Assembly: GCA_900469955.1 (NCBI GenBank)
Contig: UBYX01000004.1
Location: 1 to 64,000 of the forward strand
Source of the DNA: Hyphomicrobiales bacterium
GTDB taxonomy: Bacteria > Pseudomonadota > Alphaproteobacteria > Rhizobiales > Rhizobiaceae
Direction of reading: 5' to 3'
Length of the DNA: 64,000 nucleotides
The position numbers and the translations under genes are program-made. This document shows positions 40,636 to 44,051 of this stretch, in pieces (the first letter of the stretch is position 1; each line of letters opens with the position of its first letter). The notes below the pieces were generated by a model, which saw only the letters and a list, made by a program, of their open reading frames with translations, did not search any database and was not told where the DNA came from.

Positions 40636-41058
40636 ATGGTGGACATAAAGGTCAAGGCTCGGCCGATCGGCGCTAAAGCGGTCCTCGGACGCCTTGGTCA
40701 CCCGCGGGTGACAAGCGCGACTAAGGGCGGACTGGAGGTCGTCACCGGCGCCTCCGAACCCGGCTTCAATCCGCTCGACCTGATGTTCGCTTCGCTCGCC
40801 TCCTGCCTCGTCCTGAGCGGGCGGATCGCCGCAAGCAAGCTCGGCATGTTGGATAAACTGACCGAGGTCAGGGCTTATGTGACCGGCGAGAAAGCCCATG
40901 AGGAGCCGTCTCGTATTGTCCGGTTCATCGTGAGCCTGGAAGTCGACGGGGAACTGACGGCAAGTCAAAAAGCCGAAATTGCTCATATGGCGGAAGAGAT
41001 CTGCACCGTCAGTAATACGCTGAAAGGGTCGCCCGAGTTCTCGGTGGAAATCGCCTAG
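40636..41058 (+). CDS. OsmC family peroxide-stress protein
   Basis: A 140-residue OsmC/Ohr-fold protein. The two reactive cysteines are in LASLASCLVLSG and EEICTVSNTL. Such proteins reduce organic hydroperoxides as dimers. AAGGGGAGG precedes the ATG, 14 bp after lipB. Its stop overlaps the convergent BON-domain gene by 4 bp. Confidence 0.9.
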   Translation: MVDIKVKARPIGAKAVLGRLGHPRVTSATKGGLEVVTGASEPGFNPLDLMFASLASCLVLSGRIAASKLGMLDKLTEVRAYVTGEKAHEEPSRIVRFIVSLEVDGELTASQKAEIAHMAEEICTVSNTLKGSPEFSVEIA

Positions 41059-41552
41059 TCGTCATCCGGTATCCGGCTGTCGACACCGGCAAGCCTGAGA
41101 TTGTTCACGACCTGCCGGCCCCCCGCGATCGTCTGGATGTGACGGCCGATCTTGCGTGACGTCGCCGCATCGTCCACCACGCCTTCAAGCGTCACTACGC
41201 CGCCGTCGACATGGACGTCGACCGCCTCCATGGGAACGACATCTAGGCTCTCGATTGCATCGGTAATCCGCTCTTCGAGGTCATCCGAATCTGCCAGGCC
41301 TTCCGTAGCCGGGGAATCGCTATCGATGACCGGTTCCTCCAGTCCGTCGAAACCAGCCTCGTCCACATGATAGCCTCGATTGCGGTCGCTATCGAAATTG
41401 GCTTTGGGATCGCCATAGGCGGCGTTGTCGACAGGACGCGCACCGGCACCCGCTGCATCATCATAGGGCCAGCCTTCACCGATGTTGCGGTCGTCGTAAT
41501 CGCGAAAATCCTCTTCGCGGGAAATGTCGTCAACTTTCCGCTTGGACGGCAT
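41055..41552 (-). CDS. BON-domain protein with long acidic N-terminus
   Basis: A 165-residue protein. The N-terminal 90 residues are very acidic and disorder-prone; the C-terminal BON domain holds DAIESLDVVPMEAVDVHV-type strands and the key VVTLEGVVDDAATSRKI glycine pattern. BON domains bind membranes or small ligands and are stress-linked (OsmY-like). The ATG at 41552 has CAGGAGAA upstream. A second BON gene follows on the same strand. Confidence 0.85.
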   Translation of the reverse strand: MPSKRKVDDISREEDFRDYDDRNIGEGWPYDDAAGAGARPVDNAAYGDPKANFDSDRNRGYHVDEAGFDGLEEPVIDSDSPATEGLADSDDLEERITDAIESLDVVPMEAVDVHVDGGVVTLEGVVDDAATSRKIGRHIQTIAGGRQVVNNLRLAGVDSRIPDDD

Positions 41553-41616
41553 GGTGTTCTCCTGTCGGTTCTGTATTGGACCCGGCGCACCAGCAGATGC
41601 GCCGGGTAGATTAGCC

Positions 41617-41874
41617 TCAATGGCTCGTGGATGTGCCATTCTTGTTACCCGTCAGGGTCAGATGGCTTTCGACATCATGCACGCCATCCACGGTTTCCGC
41701 GCTCAGCACCGCCTTGCGGGCCGAAAACACGGTGTCCACAGAACCTTCCAGGACGATCTTCGTTCCCTCGGCATGCGGTTCTATCGCCGAGGCATCGACA
41801 TCCGGCAGGGCAGCCAGACGCTCGGCGACCTTCCGCTCGAGTTCGGCCCCACTCTTGCCTTGAGATACACTCAT
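41617..41874 (-). CDS. Small BON-domain protein
   Basis: An 85-residue protein consisting of one BON domain: LERKVAERLAALPDVDAS, then KIVLEGSVDTVFSARKAV and VHDVESHLTLTG. No signal peptide is seen. The ATG at 41874 follows GAGGAGCG. Two BON genes in tandem, next to an OsmC gene, suggest a cell-envelope or osmotic stress group. Confidence 0.85.
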   Translation of the reverse strand: MSVSQGKSGAELERKVAERLAALPDVDASAIEPHAEGTKIVLEGSVDTVFSARKAVLSAETVDGVHDVESHLTLTGNKNGTSTSH

Positions 41875-41938
41875 CGTATCGCTCCTCATGGCTTGCGAGC
41901 GCAAAACGAGCGAAAGCAGTTTTGGTTCGACGCCTGCC

Positions 41939-42430
41939 TTAAATTCCCTTTTCCCACTTGCGGGAGAGGCGGTCGCGTTTCAGCCGGGACAGGCGCTTCA
42001 GCCAGAAGATGCCGTCGAGCTGATCGATCTCGTGCTGCATGCATATGGCATAAAAACCTTCGGCGTCTTCCTCCTGGTGCGCACCGTCGAGATCCTGATA
42101 GCGAAAACGGATTTCTCTTGGCCTCTCGACCTCATCGGTAGCACCCGGCATGGAGACACTGCCTTCCATGTGCCGCATGGTTTCGGCGGAAAAGGACAGG
42201 ACCTCCGGATTGACGTAGAAGCGTGGGCCGATCTCGCTGGACAACTCCAGCACCACGAGACGCGTCAACACGCCGACATGTGCGGCGGTTATGCCGACGC
42301 CGGGCGCTGCGCGCATGGTATCGAGAAGATCGCGGGCGAGGGTGCCGAGCTCACCGTCAAAGACGGTGACCGATGCGCAGGGCCTCATGAGGTCCGGATG
42401 AGGATATCTGAGAATGGGACGAATGGTCAT
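41939..42430 (-). CDS. Peptide deformylase-like protein lacking metal ligands
   Basis: A 163-residue homologue of peptide deformylase. The three family motifs are recognisable but altered: motif 1 is GVGITAAHVG (44-53), motif 2 is EGSVS instead of EGCLS (S91 for the metal Cys), and motif 3 is HEIDQ instead of HEIDH (Q137 for a metal His). Without two of three ligands it should not bind iron or zinc normally, so it is probably not a working deformylase. The ATG at 42430 is chosen; the upstream extension is atypical. Confidence 0.87.
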   Translation of the reverse strand: MTIRPILRYPHPDLMRPCASVTVFDGELGTLARDLLDTMRAAPGVGITAAHVGVLTRLVVLELSSEIGPRFYVNPEVLSFSAETMRHMEGSVSMPGATDEVERPREIRFRYQDLDGAHQEEDAEGFYAICMQHEIDQLDGIFWLKRLSRLKRDRLSRKWEKGI

Positions 42431-42635
42431 GATGGAATTCCTCTCGCCGGCGGCCGGACATTGCATGCGCCTTTGCCATATCCTTTTGCCATGCGGACTG
42501 GACCCGGGCGACCATTTGTTCTAGCAGGAAAACCGGTGGTATGGGCAGTCGCTCCGGATCGAGCTATCCGGTTGTTGACAATATGCTTTTAGCCGCCATT
42601 CTCCTTACGTCGGATACCAGCAGCGAGGGCGGCAG

Positions 42636-44051
42636 ATGAGCGATACCGGCGAAGAGCACCGCCTGCGCACCAAGACCGACGAAGCGGGTGGCGACATCTA
42701 TTCCGAGGACGGCTCCATCCGCGCCGATTTTCTGGCCATGGTCGGCGCCGCAATCGCCGATCGCGACGTGCTTTTCCTGCGGAGCCACGTCGCACGGCTG
42801 CACGAATCGGAACTCGGCGACCTTCTTGAAGCCATTTTGCCAGACCAGCGCCTTGCGCTGGTCAAACTGCTCGGCGACCACTTCGATCTGACCGCACTGA
42901 CCGAGGTTGACGAAGCGATCCGCATGGAGATCGTCGACCAGATGCCGAATGCGCAGATCGCCGCGGCCATCGGCGATCTCGATTCGGACGACGCGGTCTA
43001 CATCCTTGAAGACCTCGATCAGGAAGACCGGGAGGAGATTCTCGCGCAGCTGCCGTTCACCGAACGGGTGAGGCTGCGCCGGGCACTTGACTATCCCGAG
43101 CAATCGGCCGGCCGCCGGATGCAGACGGAATTCGTCGCCGTGCCGCCATTCTGGACCGTCGGCCAGACAATCGACTATATGCGCGATGAGGAGGACCTGC
43201 CGGAAAGCTTCACGCAGATCTTCGTCATCGACCCGACGTTCAAGCTGCTCGGCGTGCTCGACCTCGACCGTATCCTGCGCGCCAAGCGGCAGGTGAAGAT
43301 CGAGACGATCATGCGGGAGACGAACTATCCGATCCCGGCCGATATGGACCAGGAAGAGGCTGCCCAGCTCTTCGAACAATACGACCTTCTGTCGGCCGCC
43401 GTGGTCGATGAAAATGGCAGGCTCGTCGGCGTGCTCACCATCGACGACGTCGTCGACGTGATCCAGGAGGAGGCGGAAGAGGACATCATGCGCCTGTCGG
43501 GCGTCGGCGATGAAGAACTTTCCGACTCCGTCACGCAGACATCGAGGTCGCGCGTGCCGTGGCTGCTGATCAATCTCTTCACCGCCTTCATCTCCGCCTC
43601 CGTCATCTCCCTTTTCGAGGCGACCATCGAGGAAGTGGTGGCATTAGCGATCCTGATGCCGATCGTCGCCGGCATGGGGGGCAATGCAGGTTCCCAGACG
43701 ATGACCGTGACGGTGCGGGCGCTCGCTACCCGCAACCTCGACATCCACAATGCCTGGCGCGTCGCCCGCCGCGAGGCGGGCGTCGGTCTCATCAACGGCG
43801 TGGTGATCGGCTGCCTTGTAGGGATGGTGGCGGGCTTATGGTTCCATGACATCAACATCGGCGGGCTGATCGCCACGGCCATGCTGATCAACATGTTCGC
43901 GGCCGCCATGGCCGGCATCATGATTCCGCTGGTCCTCGATCGGGCCGGCGCCGATCCCGCGGTGTCTTCTGCGGTTTTCGTCACGGCGATTACCGATACG
44001 ACCGGATTTTTCTCGTTTCTCGGCCTGGCGACGCTCTGGCTGCTGGGCTGA
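42636..44051 (+). CDS. mgtE: Magnesium transporter MgtE
   Basis: A 471-residue magnesium channel. The N-terminal superhelical domain is followed by two CBS domains (FVIDPTFKLLGVLDLDRIL; VVDENGRLVGVLTIDDVVDV) and a C-terminal membrane domain with five helices (MPIVAGMGGNAGSQTMTV). Magnesium bound between the CBS and N domains closes the channel. No M-box riboswitch is apparent in the 169-bp upstream spacer, although a weak TTGACA-containing promoter is possible near 42575. Confidence 0.95.
   Translation: MSDTGEEHRLRTKTDEAGGDIYSEDGSIRADFLAMVGAAIADRDVLFLRSHVARLHESELGDLLEAILPDQRLALVKLLGDHFDLTALTEVDEAIRMEIVDQMPNAQIAAAIGDLDSDDAVYILEDLDQEDREEILAQLPFTERVRLRRALDYPEQSAGRRMQTEFVAVPPFWTVGQTIDYMRDEEDLPESFTQIFVIDPTFKLLGVLDLDRILRAKRQVKIETIMRETNYPIPADMDQEEAAQLFEQYDLLSAAVVDENGRLVGVLTIDDVVDVIQEEAEEDIMRLSGVGDEELSDSVTQTSRSRVPWLLINLFTAFISASVISLFEATIEEVVALAILMPIVAGMGGNAGSQTMTVTVRALATRNLDIHNAWRVARREAGVGLINGVVIGCLVGMVAGLWFHDINIGGLIATAMLINMFAAAMAGIMIPLVLDRAGADPAVSSAVFVTAITDTTGFFSFLGLATLWLLG

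Follow-up and report, generated by a model that had tools for sequence, protein, structure and literature searches.

A peptide deformylase paralogue with an invariant, exchanged catalytic site in Rhizobiaceae and other Alphaproteobacteria

Introduction

Why would a bacterium keep a peptide deformylase whose catalytic motifs are all altered? Peptide deformylase (PDF, Def) is the enzyme that trims the N-terminal residue of new proteins, and the 64,000-nucleotide stretch of DNA analysed here (the window) encodes a homologue that raises this question. Canonical PDFs carry the motifs GxGxAAxQ (motif I), EGCxS (motif II) and HExDH (motif III), and the metal is held by the cysteine of motif II and both histidines of motif III (PMC5591237). 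Accessory PDFs are common, and some of them are inactive (PMC12690207).

Results

A PDF homologue altered in all three catalytic motifs

The gene, the codons of its site residues and its C-terminal helix are located as follows:

41939..42430, minus strand: HSQ-type peptide deformylase paralogue, 163 amino acids (open reading frame, PF01327, NF009484, genus orthologues, AlphaFold2 model)
42278..42280, minus strand: His51 codon, replacing the motif I glutamine (coordinate counted from the 42430 start)
42158..42160, minus strand: Ser91 codon, replacing the metal-ligand cysteine of EGCLS (Ser/Cys contrast between the groups)
42029..42034, minus strand: His133 and Glu134 codons, the kept metal ligand and catalytic glutamate of HExxH (invariant in both groups)
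42020..42022, minus strand: Gln137 codon, replacing the second metal-ligand histidine of HExxH (Gln/His contrast between the groups)
41945..41986, minus strand: basic C-terminal helix, residues 149-162 (from the model; S148 and R152 kept in both groups)

The translated product reads MTIRPIL...WEKGI. An alternative in-frame ATG lies at 42466, 36 bases 5' of the 42430 start, but the latter is right, since the orthologues begin at MxxRPIL; a GAGAGGA sequence was spotted by eye 5' of this ATG. The protein matches the Pfam family PF01327 with 139.8 bits over residues 3-152 (cut-off, 22.8), and this whole-length homology, together with the fold described below, places it in the PDF superfamily. It differs from active Def in each motif: GVGITAAH stands in place of GxGxAAxQ, EGSVS in place of EGCxS, and QHEIDQ in place of HExDH, with the first histidine and the glutamate of motif III kept. 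At these positions, the numbering presumably corresponds one to one to E. coli PDF counted with Met1, and the motif I glutamine, Gln51 in this count, would be Gln50 in mature E. coli numbering.

The translation and the alignment confirm the exchanges of Cys91 for serine and His137 for glutamine that the first-pass annotation of the window had read in this deformylase homologue. Its description of the protein as one that lost two metal ligands is accurate for Ser91 and Gln137 but incomplete, as the replacement of the motif I glutamine by His51 had been overlooked; with this third change, the alteration is a coordinated exchange of three residues, not the mere loss of two ligands. We refer to PDFs that have His51, Ser91 and Gln137, and that form one clade when those columns are left out, as HSQ-PDFs, a group to which the window protein belongs.

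The exchanged residues occur together and are invariant

The gene is present in all 58 genomes of the genus, and each of the 58 copies encodes His51, Ser91 and Gln137. Among all sequences collected, the H/S/Q combination is found in 212 full-length sequences (drawn from the GTDB genus, family and order and from other alphaproteobacterial orders) and Q/C/H in 36; none is mixed, and these 212 and 36 sequences include no intermediate between the two states. The Ser/Gln pair, whose conservation in an orthologue group had been singled out as a check, is constant in all 212 full-length relatives. A scan of GTDB genomes, biased in that EGSVSMPG was one of its two search patterns, added 80 HSQ sequences from Rhizobium, Agrobacterium, Ensifer, Bradyrhizobium, Mesorhizobium, Brucella, Phyllobacterium, Microvirga, Bosea, Ancylobacter, Gluconacetobacter and other genera. 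Searches with profiles, run on the class, order and family samples, are free of this bias and agree with the scan: HSQ-PDFs occur in six further class-sample genomes (one via a partial match), in 18 genomes of the order sample and in about 48 of the 151 in the family sample, two canonical matches excluded. When 141 sequences, down to 47% identity, are aligned, just 17 columns never vary, and H51, E89, G90, S91, H133, E134, D136 and Q137 are all among them. Judged from this alignment, the replaced positions are as tightly constrained as the retained ones.

Some individual copies deserve a remark. In one other family of the order (L193-L197), motif I reads APAIGL(S/T/A)A(C/S)HxG, not APG(I/V)GITAxHxG, with His51, Ser91 and Gln137 kept, so that the altered site exists in a second variant. 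An HSQ gene very like a Pseudochrobactrum (Brucellaceae) copy occurs in record JAHREI010000005.1, part of an assembly named Bacillus subtilis SK6B4 that is probably contaminated or mislabelled. The N-terminus of the HSQ gene of genome G005 is in a different frame, and the alignment of the Tistrella pTM2 copy is broken by a stretch of about 25 unaligned codons that separates its two parts; each may reflect an assembly error or a real lesion.

A canonical deformylase is encoded in the same genomes

The PF01327 search of the window's genome returned exactly two matches, the HSQ gene and, at G000:C26:133412-133903, a canonical def with EGCLS and HEIDH, which lies upstream of an open reading frame that reads as fmt. 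The first-pass annotation had asked for a canonical def elsewhere in the genome; the copy adjoining fmt answers this, and the contrary case, a genome with no canonical def, fails as far as sequence tells. A second, canonical-type match is present in all 58 genus genomes (its motifs were read in eight of them), and a PF01327 test of 25 HSQ genomes that represent 23 genera found at least one further PDF in each, the best copy carrying EGCLS and HExDH. These copies rule out the HSQ gene as the sole deformylase of the genomes searched. Since a canonical PDF is present alongside and the same new residues occur in every species checked, the HSQ-PDF is, by this comparison of sequences, probably kept for a job other than ordinary deformylation.

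Some HSQ genomes also encode distant extra PDF paralogues with canonical motifs, which brings the PDF-like genes there to three. The canonical def of genome G040 is split by a frameshift, either an assembly error or a real lesion.

Origin and selection

In a tree built without columns 51, 91, 92, 137 and 143 (quick search, with SH-aLRT values but no bootstrap), the 50 HSQ rows make up one side of a branch with an SH-aLRT of 96, a single change on the tree, and the HSQ clade stands beside type 1-like PDFs among the sequences included. Gluconacetobacter HSQ sequences nest within those of Rhizobiales and some HSQ copies lie on plasmids, which suggests some horizontal transfer of the gene. A phage origin was rejected, the closest phage matches having ~43% identity or below. 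By a counting method applied to four congeners, dN/dS is 0.08-0.20 for the HSQ gene versus 0-0.09 for canonical def. These estimates show purifying selection on the HSQ gene, in line with its earlier description as intact and kept, not decaying. On the evidence of alignment and tree, the HSQ-PDF is an ancient paralogue in which an invariant His-Ser-His-Glu-Gln set has taken the place of the former catalytic site.

Fold and C-terminal helix

An AlphaFold2 model of the window protein (mean pLDDT 96.5, pTM 0.91), computed from 139 sequences with two rows from plasmid records left out, has the P. aeruginosa and E. coli PDFs as its best solved matches (TM ~0.93, rmsd 1.3-1.6), and the structure comparison returned no solved structure above ~41% identity to the window protein. 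Retention of the PDF fold is shown by this model. Gly44, Gly46, Glu89, Gly90, Ala128, Cys130, Gln132, His133, Glu134, Ser148 and Arg152 are common to HSQ and canonical PDFs, and peptide-cleft positions are among those shared. The HSQ-specific positions in the alignment (F24, L35, I47, T48, V92, M94, G96, F142, W143 and R146) concentrate in motifs I to III and in the turn that leads into the C-terminal helix (F142, W143, R146). The C-terminal helix of E. coli PDF contacts the ribosome (PMC5591237); the helix in our model is its equivalent, and the turn at F142/W143/R146 is the one that orients it. Since canonical PDFs from Alphaproteobacteria end in a similar helix, it is no specific sign of ribosome docking.

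Neighbouring genes

The genes around the HSQ gene in the window are:

42636..44051, plus strand: mgtE, magnesium transporter, divergent, a steady neighbour in Rhizobiaceae (Pfam, synteny)
41055..41883, minus strand: two BON-domain genes (41055-41552 and 41617-41883), in part of Rhizobiaceae only (Pfam, synteny)
40636-41058: OsmC gene (Pfam)

The BON and OsmC neighbours that the first-pass annotation had pointed out are real, but the stress role they hinted at found no support, as they adjoin the HSQ gene in part of Rhizobiaceae only and in none of the loci examined outside; a BON/OsmC stress operon is not a general feature of the gene. Most of the Rhizobiaceae loci examined have the divergent mgtE next to the HSQ gene, with MerR, DUF1624 and DUF599 genes further out, whereas outside the family the neighbours change genus by genus, and no neighbour or partner gene is kept beyond Rhizobiaceae in the loci examined. 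A functional link to mgtE was set aside, since the pairing is absent outside Rhizobiaceae and a shared position is the simpler explanation. Because the neighbours vary in this way, the HSQ gene apparently has no fixed partner in its action, which would fit a general target, for example the ribosome. Rfam indicated no regulatory RNA near the gene, and PADLOC gave no phage-defence match for it.

Discussion

We give about an even chance to the reading that the HSQ-PDF is a duplicated, type 1-like paralogue with a rebuilt site that is no ordinary deformylase, docks at the ribosome and binds N-terminal peptides, a role that we infer from what the protein has kept and exchanged. A single duplication of a type 1-like PDF would have founded the group, which then spread among Alphaproteobacteria, partly by transfer. 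In all its members collected, the glutamine, cysteine and histidine of the site are swapped together for His51, Ser91 and Gln137 around the kept His133-Glu134 pair. Ordinary Fe/Zn deformylation is predicted from PDF chemistry to be abolished or very weak, because two of the three metal ligands and the motif I glutamine are gone. Docking at the ribosome exit and binding of N-terminal (formyl-)Met peptides may have been retained, given that the Gly44/Gly46 loop, Glu89-Gly90, Ala128, Cys130 and the C-terminal helix are kept; at the exit, the protein could shield or modulate certain nascent chains, or act by a different chemistry. The rebuilt site would be used rather than merely tolerated, and would still bind something specific, because the replaced positions are themselves invariant and those of a dead scaffold would vary. 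The most likely ligand would be peptide N-termini near the ribosome exit.

The same invariance would suit an alternative that we consider possible though unlikely, in which the PDF scaffold has become a new hydrolase or transferase for other N-acyl or N-blocked peptides. Either His51, His133 and Glu134, with Ser91/Gln137, would form a relocated metal site, or Ser91 would be a nucleophile assisted by a nearby histidine and glutamate. Five site residues that stay fixed in a protein that otherwise mostly varies make an active-site pattern, and I47, T48, V92, M94, G96, F142, W143 and R146 sit in the catalytic motifs and the adjacent C-domain turn. However, no pathway gene travels with the HSQ gene in the loci examined, and we know of no enzyme with a His-Ser-His-Glu-Gln set on the PDF fold. 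That such a site, with a different chemistry, provides a second N-terminal processing activity in Alphaproteobacteria is a tentative idea; if true, this activity has been hidden behind the name 'peptide deformylase'.

As has been proposed for type 3 PDFs, the altered site might use a different metal and deformylate at a low rate during stress, but such a weak or conditional deformylase strikes us as rather improbable. In its favour, the protein retains its fold and much of its peptide cleft. A rebuilt metal site could still deformylate, and altered motifs are no proof of inactivity: genomes without any PDF that matches the motifs exactly exist, and PDFs with altered motifs, such as the type 3 PDFs of T. 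brucei, are on record as active (PMC12690207). Yet two of the three ligands and the glutamine are swapped, always together, and the canonical enzyme is kept in each genome tested, so that one would expect the changed sites to drift in a weak, redundant deformylase. Drift would equally be open to a protein that does no more than compete with canonical Def for the exit site of the ribosome, with the helix docked and the dead site idle; the basic C-terminal helix is retained as such a role requires, but His51, Ser91 and Gln137 never vary, and we regard this reading as very unlikely. The lost ligands themselves, and nothing more, would speak for decay, an error of sequencing or a peculiarity of one strain. 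This reading is ruled out for practical purposes by the 212 sequences, by dN/dS well below 1 and by the 58 of 58 genus genomes that share all three residues, and with it falls the possibility, raised in the first-pass annotation, that the substitutions belong to one strain.

The group is large, old and strictly conserved, its catalytic residues are exchanged as a set, and its hosts are genetically tractable soil bacteria; through it, the purpose of extra PDFs becomes directly testable. We found no paper on it in the open-access literature searched.

Comparison with known peptide deformylases

Some rhizobial Swiss-Prot entries are named 'Peptide deformylase-like'. The top curated NCBIfam model for the window protein is NF009484 (PRK12846.1-5, 'peptide deformylase'; 261.8 bits, cut-off 190). 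By its name, the model stands for an equivalog deformylase. The changed HSQ site does not support this function, and the group suggests that the automatic 'peptide deformylase' label is wrong for all its orthologues. Through this naming, deformylase function spreads by automatic annotation with no support from the site. We do not claim that NF009484 is exclusive to the HSQ type: the best canonical PDF has an E-value of 3.6e-58, which suggests that at least one canonical PDF lies near or over the cut-off.

Compared with type 1 Def (E. coli, P. aeruginosa; PF01327, TIGR00079), the window protein has the same fold (TM 0.93) and the same length, at 32-41% identity in fold alignments. The HE of HExxH, the Gly44/Gly46 loop, the EG of motif II, Cys130 and the C-terminal helix are held in common, whereas HSQ-PDFs differ by Gln51 to His, Cys91 to Ser and His137 to Gln and by the group-specific positions.

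Type 3 PDFs, found in archaea, in trypanosomatids and as second copies in S. aureus and S. pneumoniae, likewise have substituted motifs, are often weak or inactive and usually stand beside an active PDF (PMC5591237, PMC12690207). Their changes are described for motifs I and II, whereas those of HSQ-PDFs affect all three motifs in one fixed pattern; this comparison is by description, the tree holding HSQ and canonical-motif sequences. Neither rhizobia nor the H/S/Q pattern is mentioned in the main text of the survey in PMC12690207. V. cholerae Def2 and the integron PDFs resemble HSQ-PDFs in being second copies beside a canonical PDF (PMC12690207), but they are proven to be active, whereas in HSQ-PDFs the catalytic residues are exchanged.
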